IMG/VR virus record: IMGVR_UViG_3300042517_000864
Location: 1-50,428 of that record
DNA: 50,428 nucleotides
DNA from: a virus
Reading direction: 5' to 3' (one strand)
Each line of letters opens with the position of its first letter. The stretch's first letter is position 1. This document shows positions 2,006 to 47,545 of this stretch, piece by piece. The notes under the pieces are model-generated. The model saw nothing but the letters and a program-made list of their open reading frames with translations. It was not told the DNA's origin and searched no databases. A program made the translations under genes and the position numbers.

Positions 2006-3946
2006 ATGGATAACTCCACCAACCTGGTCTCCCAGATAAAGTCCGATTACCTTGCATACAGCATGTCGGTAATTGTCGGCAGGGCCATCCCCTCCTTGAC
2101 TGACGGGCTCAAACCAGCTCAACGTCGAATCCTGACCGCAATGAAATGGCTCGGTCTCCGCCCCGACGGTCGCTACATGAAGAGTGCCCGTGTCGAAGGT
2201 GAGACAATGGGTAAGCTTCACCCCCATTCTGGGGCATATGGAGTCATGGTAACCCTCGCAGCACCCTGGAACAACAACTTACCTTTAATCGATGGCCAGG
2301 GAAACTGGGGCTCATCGGTAGATGGCGCAGCGGCCAGTCGCTACACCGAGTGCAAGCTCTCACCCTTCGCTTGGGATTGCCTACTTACAGACAACGAAAC
2401 CTGGGTAACTACCGATAACTACGACGGGTCCCTGCAAGAACCCACTGAACTCAATGTAAAGATCCCCCTGGTTCTCCTCAACGGGCAAGAAGGTATTGGC
2501 GTGGGCTTCGCTACAAAAATCCCCCCACACTCTCTGAGAGACATTTGCGACGCTGTTTGTAAAGGGTCCCTGCTAACACCCTCATTCCCGACAGGATGTG
2601 ACATTGTCAATGATTCTGGCCTTACCGACTATCAGCGCACCGGTGTGGGCACCCTACGCCTACGCGCTCGTTGCGAAGTTACATCGGAAGGCACAGGCAA
2701 ACGCACCAAACAAACCCTAACTTTTACCAATCTACCTACAAGCACCGATCCCGAAAAAATCGGCCAACAAATCAAAGATGCACTCGACAAAGGATCCATC
2801 TCCGGGGTGTCCGCAGTCAGCGATCAGTCTGATCTCACGGGCGACCGTCTTACGGTTACTCTCAAAACTGGGACCGACATCAGCTTGGCCACTCGCCAAC
2901 TCTACCACTACACTGACCTGGACACTAAATATTCGGCACGGTTGCTGGTTGTGGACGGGTTGCGACCAGTCGAAATGTCTCCAAGTGAGCTTATTACGAG
3001 TTGGACGTCATGGAGACTGGCTCGGCTGGGTGCTAAATTCCGGCATGAGCTAAACGCTTGCGAACTTCGCCTCGAAATTGTTCGGGGTTACCTCAAGGCA
3101 ATCAGTAAAATTGACGCCGTCATCAAGATTATCCGGGCTTCCAAATCTCCCAAAGAAGCCCTAATCGAGCTCGTCTCCAACCGTTCGCTCAAATTTACTG
3201 GGGACCAAGCCCGTGCTATTCTGGAGATGAAACTCCGTGCTCTTACCAATTTAGACTCGGAAGAACTGGCACAGGAGGAGGGGTCCCTTATAGCCAAGCG
3301 TGAAGAACTCGAAGTCCTGATTCGGGATGAGAAAGCACGAAAAACCTACATGCTCAAGGAAATCAAGGCCATTGGTGTCCGCCATGGTGAAGTCCGACGC
3401 TCCTCCCTAATTGATCCGCCCGAAGGCCTTACCGTAGAGAAAGGGTCCCGTCAGCAAGGAGAAACGGTTGCTAAACCCCGGTTCATCAAAATCGATACCA
3501 AGAAAGGTATAGCCGAACAGGCTAAGGGTCCCCGAGGTGCCCTTATCCTCGAAAAGACTGACAAACTCATTACCCTCACCCAAGATGGCACTCTCAAAAA
3601 ATTACCCCCAAACTTCAAGGGTCCCCTTGGCGACGGCTACTCCCCTGTCGTGCTTGCCAAAAAAGAAACCGATGTCAGAGAACGCAAGTACCTGATGGTT
3701 TTCACCCTCGGTGATCAACTCAAAGCGATGATGATCTCCGGCGAAGACCTTACCAAAGTAACATCAAAAGGCAAACAAGCCCTTCCAGAGGGTGCAACCA
3801 TGCTATACTTTGGTGAAGGCTCTTACACAGTTCCTTGGGCATCCTCAAGAAAGAAAAAAGTTGAATTGTTTCCCGTGACCACAAAACAGGGTAAACCCGG
3901 CAGCAAGGGCATCAAGGTTGCCACCATCTCAGAAATCTCCCTCTAG
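2006..3946 (+). CDS. Type IIA DNA topoisomerase, subunit A (GyrA/ParC/T4 gp52-like)
   Basis: 646 residues. The N-terminus carries the breakage-reunion domain: YSMSVIVGRAIPSLTDGLKPAQRR (18-41) is the GyrA/ParC signature. HPHSGAYG, IDGQGNWGSSVDG and SRYTECKLS follow, with the catalytic tyrosine at Y113 preceded by R112. The coiled-coil/tower region follows at about 330-470. A short C-terminal region (about 495-640, with KGPRGALI and LTQDGTLKKLP) resembles part of the GyrA beta-pinwheel. The protein is shorter than GyrA but longer than T4 gp52. It cleaves and rejoins both DNA strands, relieving or resolving topology during replication. The ATPase subunit it needs is not in this window, so it must lie elsewhere or come from the host. 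The gene contains six GGGTCCC heptamers. Confidence 0.93.
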   Translation: MDNSTNLVSQIKSDYLAYSMSVIVGRAIPSLTDGLKPAQRRILTAMKWLGLRPDGRYMKSARVEGETMGKLHPHSGAYGVMVTLAAPWNNNLPLIDGQGNWGSSVDGAAASRYTECKLSPFAWDCLLTDNETWVTTDNYDGSLQEPTELNVKIPLVLLNGQEGIGVGFATKIPPHSLRDICDAVCKGSLLTPSFPTGCDIVNDSGLTDYQRTGVGTLRLRARCEVTSEGTGKRTKQTLTFTNLPTSTDPEKIGQQIKDALDKGSISGVSAVSDQSDLTGDRLTVTLKTGTDISLATRQLYHYTDLDTKYSARLLVVDGLRPVEMSPSELITSWTSWRLARLGAKFRHELNACELRLEIVRGYLKAISKIDAVIKIIRASKSPKEALIELVSNRSLKFTGDQARAILEMKLRALTNLDSEELAQEEGSLIAKREELEVLIRDEKARKTYMLKEIKAIGVRHGEVRRSSLIDPPEGLTVEKGSRQQGETVAKPRFIKIDTKKGIAEQAKGPRGALILEKTDKLITLTQDGTLKKLPPNFKGPLGDGYSPVVLAKKETDVRERKYLMVFTLGDQLKAMMISGEDLTKVTSKGKQALPEGATMLYFGEGSYTVPWASSRKKKVELFPVTTKQGKPGSKGIKVATISEISL

Positions 3947-4178: not shown

Positions 4179-4724
4179 ATGGAAATCCTTTACCCGGTTG
4201 ACCGCCTTCTGGCTAACCCTCGCATTTTCTACGCGATAGCCAACGCTCTCGAAGGCCCTGATGGCGAGACATTAAAGAACGCCTTCTACGAACTCATTGA
4301 GTATGGTTTCAGCGAGTTTGAAGAACCGGAAGACATTGAGTTTACGGCGGAGGAGGTATGCTTCTCAATTGACGCTGAAGACGGCACCGTTCAACTCACA
4401 CTGGACACCGGCCTTGCTTCCATCCTGAAACCCGTAGAGGGTGAAATCAAGGCCCAAATCACCAATGACCATGAAATGGCTGCCACCAGCGCCATTTACG
4501 CCCGGATCGTAACGGCCATTGAGGAAGCCAACCCCGACTTTGCGGGCAACATCGCCCTTTGCTCACCCCCTACCCCCGGCAATAGTTACTTGCGATCTGA
4601 GGACGGGGAGAGATTTGAGGGGGCCTTCCACCTCCTCTCCGACCCAGAGCTCCAATACGCCTTCAATGTTGACATTATCGACGTCAACGAAGACATTCTG
4701 AAAGCGACCTACAAACCTATCTGA
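4179..4724 (+). CDS. Unknown acidic protein
   Basis: 181 residues, starting MEILYPVDRLLANPRIFYAI. It is strongly acidic throughout, with clusters such as EFEEPEDIEFTAEEV and DIIDVNEDILKATYKPI. There are no signal peptide, membrane segments or catalytic motifs that I recognise. It ends three bases before the next ATG, so it forms an operon with the coiled-coil protein. The start is supported by the TACAAT box 21 nt upstream. Its place between topoisomerase and polymerase suggests an early or middle role; function unknown. Confidence 0.75.
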   Translation: MEILYPVDRLLANPRIFYAIANALEGPDGETLKNAFYELIEYGFSEFEEPEDIEFTAEEVCFSIDAEDGTVQLTLDTGLASILKPVEGEIKAQITNDHEMAATSAIYARIVTAIEEANPDFAGNIALCSPPTPGNSYLRSEDGERFEGAFHLLSDPELQYAFNVDIIDVNEDILKATYKPI

Positions 4725-4727
4725 GAA

Positions 4728-5558
4728 ATGCTCGACAACCTACTCACATCTACAAACGCAGCCCGCACTTCTCTCTCAAACATCAAGAAAAAAGTCTCTA
4801 AGCTCCGCATCTCCGTGGAGGAAGTCAGCGCAGACTTGGAGAAGATGGAGACAAAATTCGAAAATATCCTCTCCCAGGCAGAGATCTATAAAGCCAAACT
4901 AGAACGCGAGATGGGTCGTGAAGTGCGCCGACTCGAACGTGAGTTGGCGCTTCTGCGTAATGCCACCGCAGGAGTCATAACTCCCGACGAAGCAACAAAA
5001 AGCGACCTGAAAGTTGCCTCCACAATTGGAATTTTCGATGCGATCCTTCGCAACATGTGTGAAGGAGCCGAAGACTTCCGCCTGGCCTCCGAAGCCTTCC
5101 TGTTTCCCACGGTTTATGAGCGAGTCATGGACGGTGGTGAAGAGGCCTACTTCCTTGAGGAGATGCCCACCGCCGCCGCCCTCGTTATTCAGCGGGGCAA
5201 AGAGCACATTGAGTGGATTCGCGATGAGTATGACACTCACATCACAGATCCGGACACCTGGCAACTTGCCATTGACTACATTACGGAGTGGTGGCGCAAT
5301 GACGCTCTCCCAATGATTTACGGGGCTCGTGACGAGCAATGGGACATTGACGTCCCCTTGACGCTACAGGAAATCCTGCTCTGGAGAGAGTCTCCCGGAG
5401 ACCGCCCCCTGAACTTCTCCAAAGTATTCGACGCTTACGAAATCTACCGCAAACACAAAGATGAAATTTATGGATCTTCCGGAATCCGAGACTTCGAACT
5501 CAAACTCTTCACCTTCTCCAGTGAGGAAACCACACAGTCACGCTTTGGACCCCGTTGA
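4728..5558 (+). CDS. Unknown protein with N-terminal coiled coil
   Basis: 276 residues. Residues about 10-80 form a long charged heptad region (NIKKKVSKLRISVEEVSADLEKME onward to REVRRLERELALLRN), typical of an oligomerising coiled coil. The rest is globular and acidic, rich in aromatic residues (YITEWWRNDALPMIYGARDEQW). No family was recognised. It is separated by three bases from the preceding gene. Its 3' end overlaps the start of the next frame. Confidence 0.75.
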   Translation: MLDNLLTSTNAARTSLSNIKKKVSKLRISVEEVSADLEKMETKFENILSQAEIYKAKLEREMGREVRRLERELALLRNATAGVITPDEATKSDLKVASTIGIFDAILRNMCEGAEDFRLASEAFLFPTVYERVMDGGEEAYFLEEMPTAAALVIQRGKEHIEWIRDEYDTHITDPDTWQLAIDYITEWWRNDALPMIYGARDEQWDIDVPLTLQEILLWRESPGDRPLNFSKVFDAYEIYRKHKDEIYGSSGIRDFELKLFTFSSEETTQSRFGPR

Positions 5559-5824: not shown

Positions 5825-6814
5825 ATGATCCCTAGAACCGTTCTAATGGCACAGGAGGTGGTCGCACAGCTCACCTCTCCACAACTCGACGAGTATGGCA
5901 ACATCATCCTCAACGGTTACCTTAAGGTAGTTCCTAACACTGTAAACAAAAAAGCATGGCAGTATAAGGAAACAACCACCGCGCCAGTAAATCTGCCCTC
6001 CCTCACTGTAGTACGTCCTGCCATTAAAGGTTGGACTACCAACTACTACGAGTACTACACCCAACTTGCCCCCAACGCCTACAGCCAGGTTCCCGGCAAC
6101 CCCACAATGTTCAAGTATGGGGTGCATTCTTTCACTGCCGCCTCAGGCCCCATTACCTCTCTTCAGGGGCTTCAAGGAGGTAGCGGATACACGGTAGGCC
6201 CTCACCTTGGCGTCCCTGCTGTTGGCGGATCCGGCACCGGCGCTACTCTCGACGTCACCGTTGGAGCAGGAGGAGTAGTCGTCACCGCAACCATCTCCAA
6301 CCCCGGAACAGGTTATCAAGAAGGAGACGGCCTCACCGTAACCACCCTGGGTAGTGGGACAGGTTTCTCCGTGTTTGTGGGACCTATTGCCGCACCAATT
6401 ACAGCAATCGGTGTGATTTCTCCCGGATCCGGGTTCACATCTGGCACCTACACGGGCGTGGTCACCACTTCGAGCGATGCGGGAACTGGTGCTACCCTGG
6501 ACATCGTAGTTGATGCCACCGGTCAAGTCATCAGCGCGGTCCTCAATGCGCCAGGCACCGGTTACACTGTAGGCGCTGTTCTGACTCCCACCGGCATTGG
6601 CCCCGGTGTAGGATCCAGTGTGAGTGTAACATCGGTCGGCGTGGCGAACCCAGCCGGTGAGTCCAAATGGGCTCAACCTCCCGCTCGTTACAACCAGCAG
6701 CAAGTCTCCAACATTACTCCTCCCCAGAACGTCAATAACCCTGCCGTCATCCAGTACTCCTTTGTATACCCTGTGGCAGACAACCCAGTTGCCCCTCCCA
6801 TAGACATTCTCTGA
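5825..6814 (+). CDS. Probable virion protein with glycine-rich repeats
   Basis: 329 residues. The N-terminal 110 residues look globular (MAQEVVAQLTSPQLDEYGNI...). Residues about 110-275 hold at least two repeats of the form GTGATLD-V-V-GxVV-A-ISNPGTGY-GD-LTV, a pattern common in phage structural proteins and probably beta-rich. The same pattern occurs inside the tail sheath of this phage (about residues 842-942). It ends in a proline-rich tail. The start may be ATG 5825 or ATG 5846 (MAQEVV...). A structural role is inferred from the repeats; its place beside the polymerase gene is odd for a virion protein. Confidence 0.7.
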   Translation: MIPRTVLMAQEVVAQLTSPQLDEYGNIILNGYLKVVPNTVNKKAWQYKETTTAPVNLPSLTVVRPAIKGWTTNYYEYYTQLAPNAYSQVPGNPTMFKYGVHSFTAASGPITSLQGLQGGSGYTVGPHLGVPAVGGSGTGATLDVTVGAGGVVVTATISNPGTGYQEGDGLTVTTLGSGTGFSVFVGPIAAPITAIGVISPGSGFTSGTYTGVVTTSSDAGTGATLDIVVDATGQVISAVLNAPGTGYTVGAVLTPTGIGPGVGSSVSVTSVGVANPAGESKWAQPPARYNQQQVSNITPPQNVNNPAVIQYSFVYPVADNPVAPPIDIL

Positions 6815-6847: not shown

Positions 6848-9628
6848 GTGAACAACCTAACGCCTGTGAGAAAAACACCCCTAGGCTACCCCGTCCTTTC
6901 GAGCACCTTGCGAGAGAGGATTTTTGGTAAGCAGGCTCCCCTGGAAATGAGCCACCTTGCCAAGCAAAAAGCAGAGAACCTGCTGAAAGAATTCGACATT
7001 CAAACTCCCGTCGACTACCCTGACCACCTCTACGACGGTCCCCTCCCCCTCCCTAACCTTAAGGGTGAAAATCTTGGGGCCCACTTCGAGACTATCGCCA
7101 ATGAACAAATCGGGGGATATAAAATCCTGGGAGACGAGTTTGCTGCCTGCAAACTGGCGGAAATCCCGCCCGCAACAGAACTCAAGTTCAACCCCGGCTG
7201 GACCCGTTACACGAAGGTCCGTGGCAAGTGGAAAACGGAGTCCGTGCCGTATCCTTTGGAGGAGGCATTCACGTACGATACTGAGACTTATGTGCATGGT
7301 GGCGCGTTTCCGATTATTGGCACTGCGCTATCTGCCAAAGCGGCTTACATTTGGTTGGCTTCTGAGCTTATTGATCCTAGTCTGCCTGAAGATAAGTGGG
7401 ACCAACACGCCTTAATCCCGATTGGAGAGAACCGTTTTGTAGTCGGTCATAACATCAGCTATGATCGCGTACGTGCCCGCGAAGGTTATTCACTCAATCG
7501 CACCAAACCTGAAAACTTTTACTTTGACACCCTATCTGCACACATTGGCGTATCTGGTCTTGCCAGTGGCCAGCGCTGGCTATATGTTTTGGCTGGTAAG
7601 AACCCTGAAGATCTTACTGATGAAGAAAAGCGAAAACTGAGGTATGCCCCCAAGTGGCTGGATGAGGGCTCCACAAACTCTCTGGTAGCTACTTACAACT
7701 TCCACGTTTATGAAGTGCGTAAGTTCTTCGGGGACGATGTTCAACCCTTGGGACAGGGCGACAAAGCCGTTCGGGACATTTTCGTAAAAGCCACCCACTT
7801 AAGTCAAATCCGACAGATGTTGACGGAGGCTGTTGACTACGCAGTCAAAGACGCCTTCTACACTGCTGAACTCTTCCAGGCACTGTGGCCCAAGTACCTA
7901 GACGCTACCCCATCCCCCGTTGCTCTCTGTGGTCATTATCACCTCAATGGGTCAATCATTCCTTTGGTCCCCGACTGGGAAGAGTGGATCCAGGGCGTAG
8001 AGCGCACCTTTGAAGAGCACAATAACGAGATGACCCAAATCTGTAAAGATTTGGTGTGGGAGAACTATGAGGAGTGGAAACGTCTCTATCTTAACGACCC
8101 TGTTAAAGCCGAGCGGTGGGTGGCCAAAGATCCTTGGCTTTCCCAGTTGAACTGGGAGGTTAAGACCTTTAAAGGCAAGTATGCTCACGTTCCTAAATGG
8201 GTGCGACCTTTCATCAAAGACCCAGATCAACACATCGGGGTGAAGTCCGATCTGTCTCACCTGATGCTCAAACTGACGTGGGAAGGGTCCCCGATGGTTC
8301 TAACTGGAGACATGGGCTGGTGCTATCACAGCGAGGAAGGTGTTCTCACCAAGATCCCTCACCCGAAAGGTGCAGGTGCAAACGTCGGCGGTGTTCTCTC
8401 AAAAGATTTCGTTGACGACATGAAAGTGGGTCGGCTCAATAGCGACCTGCCGGAGGCAAAGCGGGCACTTGAGATCGCGAACGCGGTCTCATACTGGACT
8501 TCGGTCCGTAAGCGTGTGATGGACCGGATCTTCATCCCTACCCATAACCCTCACGGTGCTGATGCACTGGTTACTCTCCCTGAGATCCTTTGCCATGGCA
8601 CCGTAACGCGACGAACCGTGGAGAGCCTCATGGTTACTATGTGTTCCACAAAAAACTGGCGCATTGGGACCGAACTAAAAAGCCGAGTGCAAGCTCCAGA
8701 GGGGTGGAAGATTGTAGGAGCCGACTTTGACGGTCAAGAAATGCAAATCGCTTCAATCTACTCAGATAAGTGGGAGGGTGGCCATGTGGGTTGTTCCCCC
8801 TTCGGGTATAACGTGCTTTCTGGATCAAAGGAAGCGGGGACAGACCCCCATAGCGCTCTTGCTAAACTGGCCGGAGTGGATCGAGACACCGCTAAAATCG
8901 CAGGCTTTGCGGTCCTTTACGGAGCCGGAGTTAGAGCCGTGCAAACATACATCCGAAGAAAGTATCCTGATAAATCCCCAACCGAGGTGAAAAACTTTGC
9001 CTACAGGATTCTGGAAGGCAAAAAAGGGAAACTCCGAAACGGAATGTATGAGGGAGGCTCCGATAGCGGATGCTTCAACTTCATGGAGGAGATTGCGATG
9101 AGGACCCGGGTCCCTCAGCTCCCGTGCTTGGGAACCAAAATCTCTACAGCAATGCGCCCCGCCGCGGTCGGCGATGACTTCAAGACCGGCCGAGTCAACT
9201 GGACGATTCAGTCCTCGGGTGCCGAAATCCTCAGCATCATGCTAACCGCCGTTCACTGGCTGACCCAGGAGTATAAAATTCCCGCCCGCTTCGTTCTCAG
9301 CATCCATGATGAAATCTGGTTTATGACCCCCGAGCGTTACGCAGAGCAGTTTGCTGCTCTATTCCAGATCGCCCACGTCTACACCTGGTCCCTGTTCCAC
9401 TCGGCGGTAGACATTCCAGAACTCCCACTGAGCCGGGCCTACTTTTCAAGTGTTGCGATTGATGAGCGCCTTCGCAAGTCACCAAAGGAAAAGACGGTAA
9501 CCCTGTCCAACCCTGGTGGCGAAACCGAATCATTTGGCACCGAGTACTCAATGTACGAGCTTGCCGAGATTGGTGCCATCCAGAAACTAACCACCCGCTA
9601 CGAAGCCATTCAAAAAGGAGTAATCTAA
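6848..9628 (+). CDS. Mitochondrial-type family A DNA polymerase (POLG-like)
   Basis: 926 residues, an apparently intact replicative polymerase with proofreading. Exonuclease motifs are DTET (144-147), VVGHNISYDR (198-207) and YAVKDAFYTAELF (331-343). The stretch around DTLSAHIGVSGLASGQRW (227-244) matches POLG rather than bacterial Pol I. Polymerase motifs are A, GADFDGQEMQIASI (624-637, D626); B, R679-K683-F687-Y691 in RDTAKIAGFAVLYGAG; and C, SIHDE (818-822, D821). GGSDSGCFN and RVNWTIQSSGAE also follow POLG order. F687 stands where human POLG has a tyrosine (Y951). The intervening spacer is shorter than in human POLG. It synthesises the phage genome. The start is GTG 6848 or 6866. From memory, S-TIM5 carries such a polymerase. 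Confidence 0.93.
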   Translation: MNNLTPVRKTPLGYPVLSSTLRERIFGKQAPLEMSHLAKQKAENLLKEFDIQTPVDYPDHLYDGPLPLPNLKGENLGAHFETIANEQIGGYKILGDEFAACKLAEIPPATELKFNPGWTRYTKVRGKWKTESVPYPLEEAFTYDTETYVHGGAFPIIGTALSAKAAYIWLASELIDPSLPEDKWDQHALIPIGENRFVVGHNISYDRVRAREGYSLNRTKPENFYFDTLSAHIGVSGLASGQRWLYVLAGKNPEDLTDEEKRKLRYAPKWLDEGSTNSLVATYNFHVYEVRKFFGDDVQPLGQGDKAVRDIFVKATHLSQIRQMLTEAVDYAVKDAFYTAELFQALWPKYLDATPSPVALCGHYHLNGSIIPLVPDWEEWIQGVERTFEEHNNEMTQICKDLVWENYEEWKRLYLNDPVKAERWVAKDPWLSQLNWEVKTFKGKYAHVPKWVRPFIKDPDQHIGVKSDLSHLMLKLTWEGSPMVLTGDMGWCYHSEEGVLTKIPHPKGAGANVGGVLSKDFVDDMKVGRLNSDLPEAKRALEIANAVSYWTSVRKRVMDRIFIPTHNPHGADALVTLPEILCHGTVTRRTVESLMVTMCSTKNWRIGTELKSRVQAPEGWKIVGADFDGQEMQIASIYSDKWEGGHVGCSPFGYNVLSGSKEAGTDPHSALAKLAGVDRDTAKIAGFAVLYGAGVRAVQTYIRRKYPDKSPTEVKNFAYRILEGKKGKLRNGMYEGGSDSGCFNFMEEIAMRTRVPQLPCLGTKISTAMRPAAVGDDFKTGRVNWTIQSSGAEILSIMLTAVHWLTQEYKIPARFVLSIHDEIWFMTPERYAEQFAALFQIAHVYTWSLFHSAVDIPELPLSRAYFSSVAIDERLRKSPKEKTVTLSNPGGETESFGTEYSMYELAEIGAIQKLTTRYEAIQKGVI

Positions 9629-9813
9629 TGAAGCGTAAAAAGTCCCGAGTTGAAAATGTTGGAGTTCAAGTCCTCCAGGGAGTCATCGACACTTATTACC
9701 TAACAGTCCCGTACGACAAGAAAAACCGAGTCATCCCTTCTTCGGTGGAATGCGCCTACAATTCTCGCTACTTCTCTCCCCAACAAACCATTAATATGCT
9801 CCGAGCACTCTGA
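9628..9813 (+). CDS. Small unknown basic protein
   Basis: 61 residues, MKRKKSRVENVGVQVLQGVI.... The N-terminus is lysine-rich, followed by a predicted strand-rich middle (DTYYLTVPYDKKNRVIPSSV). Its ATG overlaps the polymerase stop (TAATG) and a good AAGGAG lies just upstream, so it is translationally coupled to the polymerase. The positive charge would allow nucleic-acid contact, but no family is recognised. Confidence 0.65.
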   Translation: MKRKKSRVENVGVQVLQGVIDTYYLTVPYDKKNRVIPSSVECAYNSRYFSPQQTINMLRAL

Positions 9814-12095: not shown

Positions 12096-15000
12096 ATGGC
12101 AACTTTCTCCCTCGGGACTAGCGGGGTAACCCCTGGAGCTCCCGGTGTTTACATCAATGAGCAAGCAGGCCGTGCTGCTAACGCCGATCTGGCTGATTTT
12201 AGCACCGTTTACATGCTCGTGGAGACCGATGAAGGAGTCCCCGTAACTCGGTTCCCATTCAACTCCCCGACTGCCATCACTTCCTTGAATGATTACAAGG
12301 AACTGATCCGTATCGGAACCTCCACAGTTCCCGAAGGGCGCATTCCGCTCCTGAGCTACAACTGTGTAAACGAGTTCTTCCAGAACGCTCAAATTGGCGA
12401 CCTGCGTGTTGTTCGCGTAGGCACCCCCAACCAGATCGTTGAGATCGAATTCTTCCCCTCCGCCACCAAGATTAACAGCACCGACCTCCCATCCGCCCTG
12501 ATGGCTGGTAACAAGGTGTATGTCCAAATGATCCTGAATGGCCAGAAACTGGTGTCTGGCGACGGATCCACCGGTTACACCTCCAATGGAGAGTGGCTGG
12601 GCGTGCCCGTAGTCATCCCTGTGACCTATGTTGCTGGCGACGAAGCCAACAACCGCCGCATCTCTGCCGCTATCGCAGAAGCCGTAAAAGAGGCCATCGA
12701 GACCAACCCTGCCATCAGCAGCTCGGTTTATGTTCGTTCCGCCGGCTTGGTAAACGATCTGGACCCTTCCAGCAACTCTGAAAACAGCTATGTGACCATT
12801 GCTGCCACCACATTCGGCGGAAACGTGGAAGTGGTAACCGAAGTTCTGCCAGTTGGTAGCAACTTCGTGTTCATGCAGAACGCTTACAATGTGGATAACC
12901 TTGTAGGCGGAGCAGTGAACCTGGTGCGCGTTCCCCAGGACTACACTCAGTGCATCACAACTGCCTTTGACGGTCAGCAAGACCAGGGTTACCTGATCAC
13001 CCCGACCGCTTACGCCCAGTTTGGCGCCGCCGGTCGTGCTCTTGTGGGTGCTGCCGCTGCTGCACATTGTGCCAGCAACAGCTATAAGTGGATGGCCCTG
13101 GCTGATCCCGGACCGTTCCTGGTTACTGACGTCAACGAGTACAGCGAGTTTGTGCCCCACCAGGCCGCCGCTAACCTTGAAGAAGGTAAAGAGTATCTGG
13201 TAGACAACGCCATCTACAAGTGGATCGGTAACGACGTCACCTATCCCAAACTGACCAACCAGACAATCGTGTTCGGTGAGTCACCTGAGACCGCTGTAAA
13301 CGAGTCAGCCAACCTTGTGGCCGACGGCATTCAAGTCGGCCTCCTTGACTCTGGTGTTTACACCATCAATGCTGTGCCCACGGCAGTAGACGGTGTCTTC
13401 GAACTGAGCAGCACCAACTGGTGGCCTGTTACTCTGCCCATTCAGCAAGTAACCCTCAGCGGTGCAGGCGTAGGCAACGACTTCACTAACGCTCGCGTAT
13501 TCCCTGACGCCGTAACTCCGGTGGACCTGAATGGCGAAGTGTATGTGATCGCCGCTCCTTACGACACCACTAATGACTCGGAATACTCGCTGAACCGTAT
13601 TCTGCTTGCTACCAACCCTGTCGATGCCTCTAACATCTACAACCAGGTAGTTCTGGCTGGTGGTGCTGTCAACGTGACCGCCCCCCTCAACGGTGCGGTG
13701 TACATGCTGGCTCCCACCGGTGACACCGCTCAGATTGCTTATGCTGACGCTAAGTGGGATCTCCCCGTAGACATCAACGGTCAAACTTCTGACCTGATTG
13801 AGAACACTTCAGGATCCAACGCCGGTGTAAACACTCTGCACCTGCCTGGAACTCTGCAGAACCCTACTGCTGAATATATCCTGAACTGGGTGAGCCGGAC
13901 TCTGCTCAACCCTTCCGCTCAAATCGCTTCTTCTCTGAGCGTGCCTAATGTGGCCGACGGGAGCGCTCTGTTCACCGTTGTAGGCCACGGTCTGCGTAGC
14001 GGTCAGCGGATCTTCTTCACTCAGCCTGTCACTGTAACTGCCTCCGGCAGCACAACCAACCTTGTAAGCGCCACTACTAAACTGGTGAGCCGTCCTTACT
14101 GGGTGAAGGTTCTGAGCACAAGCACCTTTGTGATCTCGAACTCCCTGGCCAACTACACCACCAGCGCTTTCGTCTCGATCCCCACTGCCGGTGTAATCAG
14201 CACCCTGCCTTCCGTCTTCTACGGACAAGTCCTCGGTCGTGGCCTCACAACTGTGAACCCGATTGAACTGCTGACCCTGCCGATGATTCGTGCTCGGAAG
14301 TATGCTTTCGACACAAATGCCATCTGGAGTCAAGCCCTGGACGCATCGGTAGCTCCCACCGGTGTTACCGTGGTTGGTAACCCCAACACATCCATCTACC
14401 TGAATAGCAACCCTGTTATTCTGGGCGAAGACCAAATCAACCCCTATGGTGAAGACCTGAGCTCCGGCACCCTGTGTGGCTGGCTGCCCAAGTTCAACCT
14501 GGTTGCTCCGGATCCTTCCCCTGTTGCTGCCATCACTAACGCCTACTGCGTTCCTAAAGTTGAGCAGTTCTTCCAGTCCGAGTCCTACTTCGTTCCTGCC
14601 GTCGATTCAATCCTCGTCGGAACCTATAATGGAACCGCCGGCTCAGGCACTATCGGACCTGCTGCCACCCTGAGCGTGTCTGCTGGTGGTGCTCCCACTC
14701 TCGCCGCTGGCGTTTACAACAATGTCCCTGTGACAGGTGGTGCTGGATCTGGCCTTACCGCGACGGTCACCATCGCCGCTGGCGTGGTAAGTGCTGCGAC
14801 AGTCAACAACGCTGGCCAAGGTTACTCAACCGCCGACACTGGCTTGACCCTGCCCGCAGGCTACGGTGGTGCAACTCTGGACGTTGCTAGCATCGTCAGC
14901 ACTGGTGGATCTTTCCTCCTTCCTGCCGCTGGCTACGGTTCCGCTCTGGCTCCCGCTCGCCTTGTCGCTGGTTCCTCCGGCGCTCAGCTGGTTGCTCAGC

Positions 15001-16076
15001 AGGCTTTCTTGGCTGGTTGCCACTTCGATGTAACCACCGCCGGTTTTGCCCCCAATGGCACAACCCCTGTGGTGATCGGTGACCGCATCGCCGTGACCTA
15101 TGACGGTGCCAACTACACCTTCACCGTGGTTCCCGCCTCTACCGCTGGTGGTGACCTGAGTGCTTACGGTCAGCCTTGCTATGGTAGCCAAGTCAAGCTA
15201 ACCTTCAGCCCCGAAGAAGGCGTCCCCAAGTCCCTGTGGCGCTTCGATGCTATCACATCCACTGAAATCATTGACACTGCTCTGCGCGGTGTTGGTTTCA
15301 ACGGTGTGCCTCAAGCTGAGTTCGTGGAGTCCGGTGTTGATAATGTGAATCGTCTCCTTGAGGATTCTCAGCGTTACTTCAACCCCTTCGGTTTCATCGC
15401 CTACTACGGTTCTTACATCGAGAACGGTGCAGGACAGTTCATTCCCCCGTCACCCTATGTGACTGGTGTGGCCGTCCGTCGCTATCGCGCTGAAGGCTAC
15501 CAGTTCCCCCCTGCTGGCGTCAAGTACCAACTGGCAGATGCTGTGGGCACTCAAATTCCCATCAACTCCGTTCAGCAGAACCTGCTCAATCCCAAGGGTT
15601 GTAACGCTGTTCGCACTCTGCCCGGTTACCCACAAACAGCCGTCTTCATTTGGGGCGGTCGCACACGGGTCAACGAAGCTGATGCTCAGCAGCGCCTCTA
15701 CCAGTTTGTCAACACCCGCGTTATCCTTAACGTGGTGTACGGCTCACTGCGCACCGCATTCGACAGCCAGATCTTCAACGTGATCGATGGTTTCGGCGTT
15801 ATCTTCAACCAGATCATCTCGGTTGGAAACAGCGTCCTGAACCAGCTGTACGTTCGTGGCGCACTGTTCGGTGCTCGCCCGAGCAATGCCTTCCAGGTTA
15901 TCTGCGATGCTCGCATCAACCCGCCCGAGGACATCGAGAATGGAATAGTTAACGCAAAAGTTTTTGTAACACCTGTTCCAACTCTTGAGAGAATCCAGAT
16001 TGATCTTATTCGTGTTGCCATCGGAAAAATGCAGCAGGAGTTAGACATCCAAGGTCTCGGTCAATCCAACCAGTAA
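12096..16076 (+). CDS. Tail sheath protein, unusually large
   Basis: 1326 residues. The start (MATFSLGTSGVTPGAPGVYINE) and the C-terminal third (GVAVRRYRAEGYQFPPAGVK, GGRTRVNEADAQQRLYQFVN, TPVPTLERIQIDLIRVAIGK) are classic for contractile sheath proteins. Subunits stack around the tube and shorten during injection. T4 gp18 is about half this length. The extra mass lies in the middle, where residues about 842-942 contain GSGLTATVTIAAGVVSAATV-NNAGQGYS, the same glycine-rich repeat type as in the protein at 5825. Extra domains in sheaths usually project outward. The final codons before the stop are followed at once by a homing endonuclease gene. Confidence 0.92.
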   Translation: MATFSLGTSGVTPGAPGVYINEQAGRAANADLADFSTVYMLVETDEGVPVTRFPFNSPTAITSLNDYKELIRIGTSTVPEGRIPLLSYNCVNEFFQNAQIGDLRVVRVGTPNQIVEIEFFPSATKINSTDLPSALMAGNKVYVQMILNGQKLVSGDGSTGYTSNGEWLGVPVVIPVTYVAGDEANNRRISAAIAEAVKEAIETNPAISSSVYVRSAGLVNDLDPSSNSENSYVTIAATTFGGNVEVVTEVLPVGSNFVFMQNAYNVDNLVGGAVNLVRVPQDYTQCITTAFDGQQDQGYLITPTAYAQFGAAGRALVGAAAAAHCASNSYKWMALADPGPFLVTDVNEYSEFVPHQAAANLEEGKEYLVDNAIYKWIGNDVTYPKLTNQTIVFGESPETAVNESANLVADGIQVGLLDSGVYTINAVPTAVDGVFELSSTNWWPVTLPIQQVTLSGAGVGNDFTNARVFPDAVTPVDLNGEVYVIAAPYDTTNDSEYSLNRILLATNPVDASNIYNQVVLAGGAVNVTAPLNGAVYMLAPTGDTAQIAYADAKWDLPVDINGQTSDLIENTSGSNAGVNTLHLPGTLQNPTAEYILNWVSRTLLNPSAQIASSLSVPNVADGSALFTVVGHGLRSGQRIFFTQPVTVTASGSTTNLVSATTKLVSRPYWVKVLSTSTFVISNSLANYTTSAFVSIPTAGVISTLPSVFYGQVLGRGLTTVNPIELLTLPMIRARKYAFDTNAIWSQALDASVAPTGVTVVGNPNTSIYLNSNPVILGEDQINPYGEDLSSGTLCGWLPKFNLVAPDPSPVAAITNAYCVPKVEQFFQSESYFVPAVDSILVGTYNGTAGSGTIGPAATLSVSAGGAPTLAAGVYNNVPVTGGAGSGLTATVTIAAGVVSAATVNNAGQGYSTADTGLTLPAGYGGATLDVASIVSTGGSFLLPAAGYGSALAPARLVAGSSGAQLVAQQAFLAGCHFDVTTAGFAPNGTTPVVIGDRIAVTYDGANYTFTVVPASTAGGDLSAYGQPCYGSQVKLTFSPEEGVPKSLWRFDAITSTEIIDTALRGVGFNGVPQAEFVESGVDNVNRLLEDSQRYFNPFGFIAYYGSYIENGAGQFIPPSPYVTGVAVRRYRAEGYQFPPAGVKYQLADAVGTQIPINSVQQNLLNPKGCNAVRTLPGYPQTAVFIWGGRTRVNEADAQQRLYQFVNTRVILNVVYGSLRTAFDSQIFNVIDGFGVIFNQIISVGNSVLNQLYVRGALFGARPSNAFQVICDARINPPEDIENGIVNAKVFVTPVPTLERIQIDLIRVAIGKMQQELDIQGLGQSNQ

Positions 16077-16114
16077 GAGTAGAGTTTACCATAGGAAAAC
16101 AACCCTATACTCTT
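16075..16114 (+). promoter_or_regulatory. Hairpin over the start region of the GIY-YIG gene
   Basis: AAGAGTA (16075-16081) pairs with TACTCTT (16108-16114), and TAGG (16092-16095) with CCTA (16104-16107). The 3' arm ends five bases before ATG 16119 and contains TATACT. The hairpin would mask the initiation region on read-through transcripts from the sheath gene. A transcript starting inside it would be free. Confidence 0.5.
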
Positions 16115-16118
16115 ATTT

Positions 16119-16751
16119 ATGGGGATCTATTACACCTACGCTTATCTCCGGAAGGACGGCACTCCTTATTATATAGGTAAGGGGTGTGGAAAACGATTCC
16201 AAGTCTCAGGGGGGAGAATCATTTCTCCTCCTGCAGACCCTTCCCGGATTATTATCCTAAAACAGAATCTTTCTGAACAAGAGGCATTTCGGCATGAGAT
16301 CTATATGATCGCCGTATTAGGTAGAAAAGACCTTGGCACTGGAATCCTTCGAAACCAAACTAATGGGGGAGATGGTGCATCAGGGTATGTCCGAAACCCT
16401 GAACTCCGTGAAAAAGATCGTCAAAACAAGATTAAATACAACCCCTGTAAAGGAAATCGCCGTTGGCACAACACAACCCTGGGCAAAGAGTGCCTATCGC
16501 AAGAATGCCCTGGCGAAGGTTGGATGGCAGGAAGACTCCCAAGTGTTGCTAAAACGCTGAGGAGCAACAGGAAAAAACAGGAGCAAGAAGGCAGGAACCC
16601 CAGGGTCGGATCTGTATGTTCTGAAGAAACCAAGTCAAAAATAAAAACATCGAAACTGGGTAAAAAAGCATTCGTTAACCAAGAAGGAGTGGTTGTCTTC
16701 AGGGAAGACGCTCCTGGACCGGAATGGCAACGGGGGAGGAAGTGGAAGTAG
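16119..16751 (+). CDS. GIY-YIG homing endonuclease
   Basis: 210 residues. The N-terminus GIYYTYAYLRKDGTPYYIGKG is the GIY...YIG core; the family's arginine and glutamate follow in KRFQVSG and EAFRHEIYMI. The C-terminal part has a W-HN-T-LGKECLSQECPGEGWMAGR unit like the repeats in the gene at 17441, then a CSEETKSKIKTSKLGKKA stretch typical of the NUMOD3-type DNA-binding helices of such enzymes. It would cut a target in endonuclease-free relatives so that the gene is copied by repair. It sits just after the sheath gene, separating it from the gene at 16754. A GGGTAAAA at 16658-16665 lies within it. Confidence 0.88.
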   Translation: MGIYYTYAYLRKDGTPYYIGKGCGKRFQVSGGRIISPPADPSRIIILKQNLSEQEAFRHEIYMIAVLGRKDLGTGILRNQTNGGDGASGYVRNPELREKDRQNKIKYNPCKGNRRWHNTTLGKECLSQECPGEGWMAGRLPSVAKTLRSNRKKQEQEGRNPRVGSVCSEETKSKIKTSKLGKKAFVNQEGVVVFREDAPGPEWQRGRKWK

Positions 16752-16753
16752 CA

Positions 16754-17035
16754 ATGTATCGCGACCTGAACCTTCGCATCCCAGAAAATCTCTTTTTTCA
16801 CCTTGAACGGCAAGCTGAGGAGCAGGGTGTTTCATTTGAAGCATTCTGCTTCTCCCTTCTCTCGGGAGAAAAACAAGAGGCATCCCTCGTGGATCCAGCA
16901 TACTATCAGTCATTAACGCTCGATGTCCTGCGGAAGGAAATCCCCCGGGTAATCGAAAGCGATCTCAATAAAGAAGAAGTTCGTAAGAGAGTTAATGCTC
17001 TCGAGTTTCAAATCTCACGCAGGTACATCCGATGA
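16754..17035 (+). CDS. Small protein with possible ribbon-helix-helix fold
   Basis: 93 residues from ATG 16754. The frame extends to ATG 16724, but that start overlaps the endonuclease. MYRDLNLRIPENLFFHLERQ-AEEQGVSFEAFCFSLLSG fits the RHH pattern: a strand with alternating residues, helix A, a 'GVS' turn and helix B. The rest is helical and charged (EIPRVIESDLNKEEVRKRVN). It overlaps the gp25-like gene by ATGA. It may be a DNA-binding regulator embedded in the tail operon, or simply a baseplate accessory protein. The fold call rests on pattern alone. Confidence 0.55.
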   Translation: MYRDLNLRIPENLFFHLERQAEEQGVSFEAFCFSLLSGEKQEASLVDPAYYQSLTLDVLRKEIPRVIESDLNKEEVRKRVNALEFQISRRYIR

Positions 17036-17409
17036 GTGACCCCACGGTCCTATCCCCCGTAGTTCGGGGATTAACTTATCCATTGACGGTCGTTAACGGA
17101 AACCTTGGCACCAGCACGGACTACGCCACAATTACCCAACAGATTCGTAGTGTGCTGGAGACCCGGTACTATGAGCGGGTGATGAGAGCGGAGTATGGGA
17201 TTGGGGACTACGTTCTTGAGATTTTAGATCCCGGCCAGATTAACTCCGCGATCCAATATAGTATTTTACAAAATGTGCAGGGGTTGAGCGATCTGTCGGT
17301 CACTGGTGACTGGCAGACGGGGGGCGATGATGGCTTATATCGGGTCTTTATTCAATACTCGATCAACGGGCAACCCCAACCTCCACTCAACTTTACTCTG
17401 GCGAATTGA
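17032..17409 (+). CDS. Baseplate wedge protein, gp25-like
   Basis: 125 residues. GLTYPLTVVNGNLGTSTDYA-TITQQIRSVLETRYYERVMRAEYGIGDYV matches the gp25/gpW family core ('I.Q.I..IL.T..GER.M...YG'), with ERVM in place of the usual ERXM motif. The C-terminal half gives the strand-rich end (YRVFIQYSINGQPQPPLNFT). The length is close to T4 gp25 (about 130). It links the wedge to the first sheath ring. Its ATG overlaps the preceding stop, and its TGA directly precedes a GGGTAAAA. Confidence 0.87.
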   Translation: MSDPTVLSPVVRGLTYPLTVVNGNLGTSTDYATITQQIRSVLETRYYERVMRAEYGIGDYVLEILDPGQINSAIQYSILQNVQGLSDLSVTGDWQTGGDDGLYRVFIQYSINGQPQPPLNFTLAN

Positions 17410-17417
17410 GGGTAAAA
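17410..17417 (+). promoter_or_regulatory. GGGTAAAA motif before the GIY-YIG gene
   Basis: It directly follows the TGA of the gp25-like gene and ends 24 nt before the GTG at 17441. TTATAAA follows five bases downstream. Confidence 0.6.
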
Positions 17418-17440
17418 TAGGTTATAAACGCTGTTGCCGT

Positions 17441-18148
17441 GTGATTACCTACGCCGCGATAAATCTAACCAACAAGAAGTTTTATGTGGGGAGCACCGCT
17501 GACTTCGTAAAGAGGCAAAAAGGGCACCTCAACTCCAACGAGGACTACCCTTTTCAAAACTCGCTGCGTAAAGACCCTAAAAACTTCTACTGGATCGTAA
17601 GTGAAGATGACGAGTTAGACATCCGTGATGAAGAGCAGTATTACCTGGACTTCTACCACGGGACCGTATGGTGCTATAACCTGAACCCTAAAGCGGCGGT
17701 GCCACCGTCTGCCCTCGGTAAAGGTGGTCCTGATCATCATTTACACGGAAAAGTTTGGGACCCCGAAATTATTGCCCGTCGAACCGCTCATTGTGCGGGA
17801 GAAACTAATCCCGCCTACGGTAAGCGGTGGTGGAATGACGGGGAAGGCAATTACGTCTTGGCAACCGAGAGTCCTGGCGAAGGCTGGGTCCTTGGGGGTA
17901 GAGGGCACGAGTCTGGCAAGTTTGCCGGAGAGAACAACCCTATGTACGGTAGATCTGGGGATCTCGCTCCGTGTTACGGGATGAGGTGGTTCAACAACGG
18001 GGTTGACTTAGTAAAGGCATTTGAATCTCCAGGCGAAGGGTGGAGTGAGGGTAGAGGGCATTGGTATAACAACGGTTCAGAGCAAAAGTTTTCGGTTCCT
18101 TCCCCCGGCGAAGGTTGGGTCCGTGGTCGTCTCAAAAGGAGTAAGTAA
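17441..18148 (+). CDS. GIY-YIG homing endonuclease with tandem DNA-binding repeats
   Basis: 235 residues from GTG 17441. The open frame extends upstream to 17306, but that part overlaps gp25 in another phase, and the GGGTAAAA spacing supports 17441. VITYAAINLTNKKFYVGSTA-DFVKRQKGHL is the GIY-YIG core. The C-terminal half has three or four repeats of W(W/F/Y)N(D/N)G...(E/P)SPGEGW..GR, separated by NPAYGKR/NPMYGRS units. These are repeat types often found as minor-groove-binding modules in phage homing enzymes. It sits between gp25 and portal; its TAA immediately precedes the portal ATG. Confidence 0.88.
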   Translation: MITYAAINLTNKKFYVGSTADFVKRQKGHLNSNEDYPFQNSLRKDPKNFYWIVSEDDELDIRDEEQYYLDFYHGTVWCYNLNPKAAVPPSALGKGGPDHHLHGKVWDPEIIARRTAHCAGETNPAYGKRWWNDGEGNYVLATESPGEGWVLGGRGHESGKFAGENNPMYGRSGDLAPCYGMRWFNNGVDLVKAFESPGEGWSEGRGHWYNNGSEQKFSVPSPGEGWVRGRLKRSK

Positions 18149-19735
18149 ATGGCACAAAGATTCAAGACCGCCCCGGTACCGTCTGGAGAAGTAGCAAAAT
18201 ATACTTCCGATCCTTACAATCTTAGCGCATTGTATATGTTCGGAAGTTCGTCCCCTTTCACGGGAACGGGCAATTCTATCGTGCGTCCGAACGATGATTT
18301 GCTTTTGCAAAAAGGCGGAAACCGTGCGCTTGTTGTCTATCAGCGGCTCCTATACGACGAGCAAGTGCAATCCTGCTTCCGAAAACTACTGCAAGAAGTA
18401 ACCTCCAGACCCTGGTATATCCAACAATACTCCGACAAACCCGGTGACCTCGCCGTTCGGGACTTTGTGGCGGAAGTCTTGGAGGAGATGCCCCTTGACG
18501 ACATCTACATCGGCATGGCCGAGTCCCTCATTTCCGGATTCTCCGTTGGTGAGATAATGTGGAAGAAGACCAAGCGGGGGGTAATCCCGTTTGATGTCCG
18601 CATGCGTGATCAACGACGGTTTGTGTTTCAAGAGGAACAAGATGCCCAAACCGGCTTCACAATGCGTTGCTTGACCTTCAACCGTATGTTTGAAGGCGTG
18701 GAACTGCCACAGCGCAAGTTCATTGTGTCGAGGTACTATGTTTCGCATAACGGCGACCCATATGGCTCTGCTCTCGGCCGTATTCTTTATCCTCTTGTCA
18801 AGTTTCGGCGCCGTGCCATCGAGTCTTACGTGCTCTACGGCGACCGTTACGCGACGCCGACAGCTGTTGCAAAAGCCCCGCTCTCAGCGAGCACTCGAGA
18901 GTTGGATACGCTCTATGGCCATCTTTCCAACCTATCTCAAGAAACTGCAATGATCCTGCCGGAGGGCTACGAGCTGGAGTTCGTTGTTCCTTCAGGGTCT
19001 CCCGAAGTTTTTAAGAATCTTATCGACTACATCGACAAAGAAATTTCCCTCGTCATTTGCGGAGAGGACGAAGCGGGACAAGCAGAAGCAGGATCTCGTG
19101 CCTCCTCCCAAGTGGCTAACACTATCCGGGTTGTTCGTGCGAGCGAAATCTCAGAGATGCTATCACAAACTCTGACGCAAACTCTAGTTCGCTGGATTGT
19201 TGACCTGAACTTTGGTGTCGATGTTGCCGCCCCCGTCCTCACCCGTGAGTTTCGCATTGAGGAATCGCCCCTCACTATGCCGGATGTTTCCCTTCTTATT
19301 CAGTCTGGTTACACCCCACGCAAAGAGTGGATTGAGCGTCACTTCCGTGTTGAACTTGAAGAAAAGAAAGCGGGGGGAGAGGAAGAGGGGGAGGCCACGC
19401 AGTATGACCCGGAAGAAGATCAAAATTTATTTGGAAACATTTTTGGAGGGGGAGCCGAGGGTCAACCTTCCGCAGGTCAAGAACAAGCTGCTGCTCAAGA
19501 CCTGCAGGCCGCTTCCGACGTTATGGAAACTCCTTCTGGGGCTACTCCAGAAGAGTCTCAGTCTGACGCCATTGGGCAACCTAGCCCCGAGGAGGAACTT
19601 GGGAATAGCCAGTGGATGAGTGACGAGGAGATTGAACAATTATTGGAATCCCTGGGCACAGATGAAGAGCCTCAAAAACCATTCGGTAACCAAAAAATCT
19701 CCGAAGACGAGGCAGTAGAGATGGATAGCAAGTAG
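18149..19735 (+). CDS. Portal protein, Mu gp29-like (DUF935 type)
   Basis: 528 residues. The segment GDPYGSALGRILYPLVKFRR-RAIESYVLYGDRYATPTAVAKA and the following PEGYELEFVVPSGSPEVFKN and AGSRASSQVANTIRVVRASEI are the recognisable portion of Mu gp29-type portals. The N-terminus carries LLYDEQVQSCFRKLLQEVTS-RPWYIQQ, also typical. The last 120 residues are acidic and glutamine-rich (GGAEGQPSAGQEQAAAQDLQ) and probably disordered. It forms the dodecameric ring at the capsid vertex for packaging and tail attachment. Start ATG 18149 follows AAAGGAG. The TAG stop overlaps GGGTAAAA. Confidence 0.88.
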   Translation: MAQRFKTAPVPSGEVAKYTSDPYNLSALYMFGSSSPFTGTGNSIVRPNDDLLLQKGGNRALVVYQRLLYDEQVQSCFRKLLQEVTSRPWYIQQYSDKPGDLAVRDFVAEVLEEMPLDDIYIGMAESLISGFSVGEIMWKKTKRGVIPFDVRMRDQRRFVFQEEQDAQTGFTMRCLTFNRMFEGVELPQRKFIVSRYYVSHNGDPYGSALGRILYPLVKFRRRAIESYVLYGDRYATPTAVAKAPLSASTRELDTLYGHLSNLSQETAMILPEGYELEFVVPSGSPEVFKNLIDYIDKEISLVICGEDEAGQAEAGSRASSQVANTIRVVRASEISEMLSQTLTQTLVRWIVDLNFGVDVAAPVLTREFRIEESPLTMPDVSLLIQSGYTPRKEWIERHFRVELEEKKAGGEEEGEATQYDPEEDQNLFGNIFGGGAEGQPSAGQEQAAAQDLQAASDVMETPSGATPEESQSDAIGQPSPEEELGNSQWMSDEEIEQLLESLGTDEEPQKPFGNQKISEDEAVEMDSK

Positions 19736-19742
19736 GGTAAAA
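19735..19742 (+). promoter_or_regulatory. GGGTAAAA motif before the protease/scaffold gene
   Basis: It overlaps the portal TAG and ends 29 nt before GTG 19771. Confidence 0.6.
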
Positions 19743-19770
19743 ACTGAACAATGGGTCACTAATAAACACG

Positions 19771-22344: not shown

Positions 22345-22352
22345 GGTGAGTG

Positions 22353-23117
22353 ATGGACCTTCTTAGCCTGGTTTCTATGGCCACAAAGAGAAGGTCTGAT
22401 TACTTCTCTCAAGCCCAAACTCTCGCTCGAAAATACAAAGAGCAGCCGAATCTGGAAGAACGGATGAAGGCAGAGTCTCTGGGCTTGGTGAAAGGATTAA
22501 GGGACAAGTTAATGAGGTGGGAAGAGTATGAGCGAACAATGCTCGACAAAACTCTCACCTCCGCACTTGCCGCCTGCATCCTCGGCTTAAAAGACAAACA
22601 ATCGGATCAGAAGTTGGAAAAGTGTTGGCCGATCATTATTGGTGACATGCTTCCGCCTCTTACAAAGTTTTTAGCAGAGACTAAAGAATACATTGACTCT
22701 GGTGTGTTGCGCCTAGGGGATCAGACGGTAGACTTCGCTGACTACAATCTGCTCGGTGCGGTTCCCGGAGCAATCGATCTTGATGCTGATGCACTCGAAG
22801 GAATCAATCCCGAAGAGGAAGGAATCCAGGAAGCCACACAGCAGAGAGCACAAGGCCGAACCTGGCCTTCCCTTGCGGAACGAGTTTCTCGTTACTTAGC
22901 AACTCCAACTTTCTCGTTTTACAACCTCGGTGAGTACATGGTGGCCCAAGATATGGGCTATAAGGACATGCGGAGAGTGGCTAAACAAGATAAAAAAGTG
23001 TGCGTAGACTGTAAAAACTACGGTGAACAAGGTTGGGCACCTATTGGCGAGCTGCCTATGCCTGGCAAAGGTTGCCGTTGTTATGACCGCTGCCGTTGTT
23101 ACATCGAATACCGCTAA
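22353..23117 (+). CDS. Minor head protein with C-terminal cysteine cluster
   Basis: 254 residues from ATG 22353; a GTG just before it at 22350 is the other candidate. The N-terminal 130 residues are helical and charged. The C-terminus YMVAQDMGYKDMRRVAKQDK-KVCVDCKNYGEQGWAPIGEL-PMPGKGCRCYDRCRCYIEYR has the metal-site-like end of phage head morphogenesis (Mu gpF-like) proteins: C-x2-C, then C-x-C-x3-C-x-C. Its location between the protease and capsid genes fits. The N-terminal part lacks the usual full-length gpF sequence, so it may be a divergent or shortened member. Confidence 0.65.
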   Translation: MDLLSLVSMATKRRSDYFSQAQTLARKYKEQPNLEERMKAESLGLVKGLRDKLMRWEEYERTMLDKTLTSALAACILGLKDKQSDQKLEKCWPIIIGDMLPPLTKFLAETKEYIDSGVLRLGDQTVDFADYNLLGAVPGAIDLDADALEGINPEEEGIQEATQQRAQGRTWPSLAERVSRYLATPTFSFYNLGEYMVAQDMGYKDMRRVAKQDKKVCVDCKNYGEQGWAPIGELPMPGKGCRCYDRCRCYIEYR

Positions 23118-23203
23118 GGGTAAAACTGGTTACTGCAACTAGGTGATAAACAAGTCCTAGAGCAAACAAACACATTGAAGTCTTACTATCTGAGGACAAA
23201 GAC
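23118..23203 (+). promoter_or_regulatory. GGGTAAAA motif and 78-base leader of the capsid operon
   Basis: GGGTAAAA at 23118-23125 directly follows the TAA of the minor head gene. The leader to ATG 23204 is long compared with the usual 25 nt. It ends in CTGAGGACAAAGAC, which contains a reasonable ribosome site. Confidence 0.6.
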
Positions 23204-23665
23204 ATGGCTACAAACGCTGCTCCCGTTTACGGAAAACAGTACATCCGCTACGCAGAAACCTGGGAAGCCCCTACCAACGATCAAGCAGGCACCATCGGTG
23301 TCGTTGAAGTTGGCGAACTTCGTGCTGTGAGCTATGCCACTTGGGCTGGCCCTAACTATGCCGCTCCCGGCGTATACTTCACCGTTCAGCCTACGAACAT
23401 CTGCGGTATCAACCAGGCCTATATGCCTACCGCCCTGGCTCAACCCTACACCGCCCGCCAGCTGACCGTGGCTACTTCCGGTCTTCTGCTGGTTGAAGTG
23501 GATCCCGCTTCGGCCGCCATCGGCCTGAACAGCCAACTGCAGGTTAACGGACTGGGTCAAGCCACTGCGGCTGGCACCCCTGTGAGCCTGGATGGCACTC
23601 AGCCCCTGATCCGCGAGAACGTGACCATCGGTGGTCGTCGCCTCGTGCTCGTCAGCTTCGCCTGA
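23204..23665 (+). CDS. Probable capsid decoration protein (DUF2190-like)
   Basis: 153 residues, rich in alanine, glycine and threonine, and strand-rich. Segments such as SGLLLVEVDPASAAIGLNSQ-LQVNGLGQAT resemble small head-decoration proteins of the DUF2190 type that lie next to Mu-like capsid genes. It is placed immediately before the major capsid gene, behind a GGGTAAAA and a long leader, which suggests very high expression. No signal or membrane segment. The family call is by resemblance and position. Confidence 0.6.
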   Translation: MATNAAPVYGKQYIRYAETWEAPTNDQAGTIGVVEVGELRAVSYATWAGPNYAAPGVYFTVQPTNICGINQAYMPTALAQPYTARQLTVATSGLLLVEVDPASAAIGLNSQLQVNGLGQATAAGTPVSLDGTQPLIRENVTIGGRRLVLVSFA

Positions 23666-23677
23666 TAATTAACCTCT

Positions 23678-23707
23678 GGCTGGGCATCTTCGGTGTAAGT
23701 CCCAGCC
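23678..23707 (+). promoter_or_regulatory. Hairpin in the major capsid leader
   Basis: GGCTGGG (23678-23684) pairs with CCCAGCC (23701-23707), with an inner CATC-TTC-GGTG stem. It is followed by the dyad GGTTGCAACC. There is no T-tract, so it is more likely an mRNA stability or processing element upstream of the capsid gene than a terminator. Confidence 0.6.
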
Positions 23708-23756
23708 CTGGTTGCAACCATTTGAAGACAAAATTTAATTTCGGAGACTCCCTCCC

Positions 23757-24809: not shown

Positions 24810-24834
24810 TTTAGGACACTAAGGAGGTGTTATC

Positions 24835-25278: not shown

Positions 25279-25300
25279 TAGGTCTCTGCCTAACTCCTAC

Positions 25301-25327
25301 AACCCTCGCTTCGGCGGGGGTCTTTTT
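25301..25327 (+). terminator. Rho-independent terminator after the head/tube genes
   Basis: ACCCTCGC and GCGGGGGT form an 8-bp stem (one G-T pair) around a TTCG loop, followed by CTTTTT. The flanks CCTACAA and TTGTAGG extend the dyad. Confidence 0.88.
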
Positions 25328-25334
25328 GTAGGTA

Positions 25335-25342
25335 GGGTAAAA
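25335..25342 (+). promoter_or_regulatory. GGGTAAAA motif starting the baseplate unit
   Basis: It lies eight bases after the terminator T-tract and ends 31 nt before ATG 25373. Because transcription should end at the terminator, something here must restart it. Confidence 0.65.
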
Positions 25343-25372
25343 CCATCATAACGTGGGATAGTTATCAGTCGT

Positions 25373-25933: not shown

Positions 25934-25945
25934 GGAGGTTTCTAC

Positions 25946-47544: not shown

Positions 47545-47545
47545 C

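Follow-up and report, generated by a model that had tools for sequence, protein, structure and literature searches.

The window, by which we mean the whole 50,428-base linear virus fragment analysed here, carries a gene (polG) of 926 codons in one uninterrupted frame with zero internal stops, which lies downstream of a topoisomerase gene and two conserved genes and overlaps a small ORF at its stop codon (Table 1). The GTG start is credible because an in-frame stop lies two codons upstream and because the homologous start in the relative L065 is ATG. POLG is the enzyme by which animals and fungi replicate their mitochondrial DNA, and the best Pfam match to the product is to the "DNA mitochondrial polymerase exonuclease domain", accompanied by a match to family A polymerases (PF00476, 2.7e-11) and to PHROG 22619 (2.5e-221). 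The top chains in a sequence search of the PDB are all POLG (1e-107 to 1e-113), and Pol I, Klenow and Taq entries reach only 0.06-1 in the same search. Comparison of the window gene with that of L003 gives a dN/dS of 0.04 at a dS of about 2, i.e. near saturation; purifying selection acts on the gene. We identify it, from its predicted product, as an intact POLG-type family A DNA polymerase gene.

Table 1. Features of polG and of the genes around it in the window; amino acid (aa) positions refer to the polG product.
Feature	Position	Strand	Support
DNA topoisomerase II / gyrase A-like subunit	2006..3946	+	PF00521, 1.5e-98; 44% to the topoisomerase II that precedes POLG in S-CBWM1
Conserved small protein, S-CBWM1 gp75-like	4179..4724	+	29% identity, 2e-17
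Conserved protein, S-CBWM1 gp76-like	4728..5558	+	24% identity, 4e-15
polG, POLG-type family A DNA polymerase	6848..9628	+	926 aa, GTG start
3'-5' exonuclease domain, aa 67-350	7046..7897	+	PF18136 DNApol_Exo, 4.6e-59; score 200 bits (cut-off 26.7 bits)
Exo I YDTET (aa 143), D144 and E146	7274..7288	+	Invariant in 143/143 POLG rows
Exo II GHNISYD (aa 200), D206	7445..7465	+	Invariant in 143/143 POLG rows
Exo III YAVKD (aa 331), D335	7838..7852	+	Invariant in 143/143 POLG rows
Short spacer, aa 449-500	8192..8347	+	About 52 residues, against about 247 in human POLG
Pol motif A GADFDGQE (aa 624), catalytic D626, E631	8717..8740	+	D in 143/143, E in 142/143
Pol motif B (O helix) RDTAKIAGFAVLYGAG (aa 679), R679, K683, F687, Y691	8882..8929	+	Alignment
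Pol motif C SIHDE (aa 818), D821, E822	9299..9313	+	HD invariant; E in 86/143, S in 57/143
61-aa ORF, S-CBWM1 gp78-like	9628..9813	+	37% identity, 1e-9; overlaps the POLG stop (TAATG)

A sequence-only reading had described the gene as a full-length POLG-type polymerase in a phage, and the Pfam, PHROG, PDB, fold and tree results all bear this out; the phage is a tailed one, and its enzyme is apparently functional. Every motif that it quoted as a sign of POLG is found in the 926-aa protein, in which DTLSAHIGVSGLASGQRW begins at aa 227 and NWTIQSSG at aa 784; SIHDE alone is undiagnostic, as [VI]HDE also occurs in T7-like and Pol I-type enzymes. Polymerase motifs A, B, and C are present with both catalytic aspartates, and the sole row without E631 among 143 aligned POLG rows has a gap there, at the Mic1 split. 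The position of F687 in motif B is occupied by Phe in 80 rows and by Tyr in 63. Human and yeast POLG have Tyr in the O helix (Y951 in the human enzyme), whereas the window protein has Phe. In family A polymerases a Phe at this position predicts dideoxynucleotide resistance, and with F687 in place of the mitochondrial Tyr the nucleotide selectivity of the window enzyme should differ. The same Phe/Tyr split was remarked for S-CBWM1 and A-HIS in the Mic1 paper (PMC7156551). A further difference lies in motif C, where HDS replaces HDE throughout the S-TIM5-type clade (57 of the 143 rows), so that the second acid of the motif is gone clade-wide.

An AlphaFold model of the window POLG, computed with an input of 26 sequences (window and IMG/VR), has a pLDDT of 88.3 and a pTM of 0.88. 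Among PDB folds it is most similar to POLG of human, mouse, and yeast, mostly at a TM (query) of 0.79-0.86 and 27-29% identity, with the same exonuclease and polymerase residues. The comparison with human POLG that the sequence-only reading had proposed gives a TM of 0.85 (8v5r), and among the entries listed Klenow, T7, and other Pol I structures reach only 0.30-0.39. The overall fold of the predicted model is that of POLG. One difference is in length, mitochondrial POLG being about 1240 aa and the spacer of the human enzyme being mostly absent from the window protein (query residue 448 aligns with human 502 and query 501 with human 750 in phmmer). In the animal two-subunit POLG the long spacer holds accessory-subunit-binding and processivity elements; the short one of the window protein makes a POLG2-like accessory subunit unlikely, and the spacer of yeast MIP1 is also short. 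By analogy with yeast Mip1, the window POLG would most likely act as a single subunit with no need of a POLG2-like partner, and processivity may come from POLG itself or from unrelated phage partners.

Phylogenetic placement was assessed with an unrooted tree (40 rows, 903 columns) and with a tree of 347 polymerase-domain columns rooted on T7, CHOED, P60, SIO-2, LuckySocke, and E. coli Pol I, the latter repeated with a reduced outgroup set. Eukaryotes are represented by two rows only, human and yeast, each consisting of the segment aligned in a PDB match; the fingers are incomplete in the human row, and the pieces of interrupted phage genes were joined beforehand. All POLG sequences form one clade apart from the T7 and Pol I types, with 100/100 support in both outgroup sets, and the window POLG falls inside the S-CBWM1 clade of the 40-row tree with L092 as its nearest relative (85% identity). 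The placement among bacterial Pol I or T7-type polymerases that would have contradicted the sequence-only reading was not obtained. That the gene belongs to the Pol I or T7 type and came by its motifs through convergence is exceedingly improbable: it is a family A member and its HDE-type motif C is common to those groups, but its exonuclease domain is specific to POLG, its top PDB and fold matches are all POLG, Klenow and T7 reach a TM of only 0.30-0.38, and the clade support is complete. Between them, the tree and the comparison of folds refute a Pol I or T7-type identity. An AU test of the S-CBWM1 clade joined to the outgroups returned p 0.207, which we do not accept as evidence of a Pol I origin since the constraint only shifts the root within POLG.

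The window is a fragment of an S-CBWM1-like (Aokuangvirus-type) phage. It shares with the Synechococcus phage S-CBWM1 (Aokuangvirus, NC_048106) the order topoisomerase II, gp75-like, gp76-like, polG, gp78-like, and neck genes, and 29 of its plus-strand ORFs of at least 100 aa match that phage (portal 64%, head 66%, terminase 56%). The "different genomic context" claimed in the sequence-only reading is therefore not seen, the neighbours being those of S-CBWM1 in the same order; the context is unlike that of S-TIM5 only because S-TIM5 belongs to another phage group. One departure is the sheath-portal-head-baseplate block (12096-28852), which matches 122-139 kb of S-CBWM1 and in the window sits directly downstream of the neck genes, between genes matching S-CBWM1 at 49.4 kb; either the block has moved or the genome is laid out differently. 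Just 5' of polG lies a Gly-rich ORF of 329 aa containing tail-type repeats (5825-6814); S-CBWM1 has no ORF at this site, and that of L058 and L065 begins similarly but is only 122 aa long. Farther downstream, a 185-aa ORF (44077-44634) resembles the S-CBWM1 psbA-intron homing endonuclease region over 52 aa, and a 620-aa ORF (47468-49330) has a weak HNH_4 match. No photosynthesis gene was found in the 50-kb window. Several close relatives carry psbA-type reaction-centre genes and the isolated POLG phages with a named host all infect cyanobacteria; the window phage probably has a cyanobacterial host as well. A megablast of the first 20 kb of the window against phage records returned zero matches, so there is no near-identical isolate among them.

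We consider it very probable that polG encodes the replicative DNA polymerase of this S-CBWM1-like (Aokuangvirus-type) phage, itself probably a cyanophage. In 15 POLG phage records the family A search gave exactly one match per record, and searches that detected their positive controls matched neither a family B nor a Pol III alpha polymerase in these records or in the window; together with purifying selection, this makes polG most likely the phage replicase, and probably the only replicative polymerase. The window POLG would replicate the phage genome, its C-terminal palm and fingers extending primers and its N-terminal exonuclease removing mismatched 3' ends (proofreading). Among possible partners, a DUF5906-type "primase" is encoded by S-CBWM1 (just below the Pfam cut-off) and A-HIS1, and S-CBWM1 also encodes a 5'-3' exonuclease-like protein. 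The rest of the window phage's replisome, with its primase, its helicase, and any second polymerase, lies outside the 50-kb window, which leaves some room for polG to be a decaying or auxiliary copy, but the intact frame, the invariant catalytic residues, the low dN/dS, and the failure to detect any replicative polymerase besides POLG in all related records searched make such a copy very unlikely. No biochemical test of any phage POLG was found in the literature searched.

The first POLG genes of cyanobacterial phages became known in 2011, and the window gene is an ordinary relative of that of S-CBWM1. PMC4928673 confirms the statement in the sequence-only reading that S-TIM5 carries POLG and has served as an argument for phages as the source of the mitochondrial enzyme, and cites Chan et al. 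2011 (A-HIS) and Sabehi et al. 2012 (S-TIM5) for the idea. The Mic1 paper reviews the phage carriers, including S-CBWM1 (Xu et al. 2018), and notes that POLG homologues had so far been found in cyanophages only (PMC7156551). The window is accordingly far from a "second example", as 11 phage records already hold POLG at a coverage of at least 80% (A-HIS1, A-HIS2, S-TIM5/54/61/66, S-CBWM1, and Mic1), as do at least 178 confirmed IMG/VR contigs from one scan, with additional S-TIM5-like and Mic1-like loci in further IMG/VR scans. A scan of prokaryotic genomes with two peptide patterns only gave one confirmed POLG match, that of L143 (see below).

The closest of the named enzymes is the S-CBWM1 "DNA polymerase gamma" (57.6% identity over its full length), which has the same flanks, with topoisomerase II upstream and neck genes downstream, and the same Phe in motif B. 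It differs in a longer loop before motif B, where the window POLG has the spacing of the human and yeast enzymes, and in that the head-sheath-baseplate block is placed elsewhere in its genome. The DNA polymerase of the cyanophage S-TIM5 (Aurunvirus) has the same POLG architecture (37% identity) but belongs to a separate clade, with Tyr in motif B, HDS rather than HDE in motif C, and another gene neighbourhood. Microcystis phage Mic1 also has a POLG-type enzyme (32% identity), which differs from that of the window in being split into two ORFs, in having Tyr in motif B, and in grouping with eukaryotic POLG. The Acaryochloris phages A-HIS1 (28%) and A-HIS2 (31%) share the Phe in motif B and form a deep separate lineage with long loop inserts in their POLG.

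The trees indicate that the window POLG and mitochondrial POLG share ancestry within one clade. In the unrooted 40-row tree the human and yeast sequences fall together with those of Mic1, L188, and L256 (100/99), and the group of eukaryotes and Mic1-like phages is recovered with 97/98 support under the full outgroups and 93/83 under the reduced set; a grouping of eukaryotes with the S-CBWM1 clade of the window is rejected (AU p 0.001). Phage POLG comprises at least four deep lineages. The expectation in the sequence-only reading that the window gene "would help root that tree" is not upheld, the window being inside the well-populated S-CBWM1 clade and the branch adjoining the eukaryotes being the Mic1-like one. 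The AU test does not reject a phage-only POLG clade that leaves out the eukaryotes (p 0.284; 0.149 with fewer outgroups), and the root within POLG is weak, so that the trees do not secure either direction of transfer.

One possible reading, which we put forward tentatively, is that the mitochondrial enzyme descends from a member of the phage POLG family, near the Mic1-like cyanophages, with the clade of the window as one of several other old phage lineages and the polymerase taken over alone. The last part is proposed because the POLG phages examined are without a detectable T7-type RNA polymerase (PF00940) or DnaB/Twinkle-type helicase (PF03796), both of which were detected in the T7 control; transfer of a whole mitochondrial replisome thus finds no support. 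The reverse course, in which phage POLG, including that of the window, was acquired from eukaryotic (opisthokont) POLG and phages were not the donor lineage, draws on the weakness of the root within POLG and on the AU results for phage-only monophyly, and for the same reasons a simple statement of phage-to-eukaryote transfer is not secured. We nevertheless find a eukaryotic source unlikely, as phage POLG has four deep lineages and the eukaryotes occupy a single branch beside the Mic1-like phages, and such a source must explain the deep phage lineages outside the eukaryote/Mic1 pair; with human and yeast as the only eukaryotes, the argument is not decisive.

Taken alone, the window POLG is one more sequence in a known family. 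The gain is a wider sample, in which phage POLG is common in viral metagenomes and divides into the deep lineages described above. The lineage beside mitochondrial POLG is Mic1-like and not that of the window, which indicates where to sample for the phage-to-mitochondrion question.

Several relatives of the gene have unusual structures or settings. In three contigs polG is interrupted, at differing sites (L058:10001-13699, L065:5733-9243, and L077:8444-about 13760), and the insert in L065 encodes an HNH protein (1.3e-4); group I introns were considered for the three genes and set aside, as no credible Rfam match was obtained. L143 carries a POLG 58% identical to that of the window; its 9.6-kb contig was assigned to an uncultured Microbacteriaceae MAG but most likely comes from a phage that was binned with it. 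A 33-kb contig (L256:6001-8607) carries an uninterrupted POLG of the Mic1 type, the phage lineage with which mitochondrial POLG groups.
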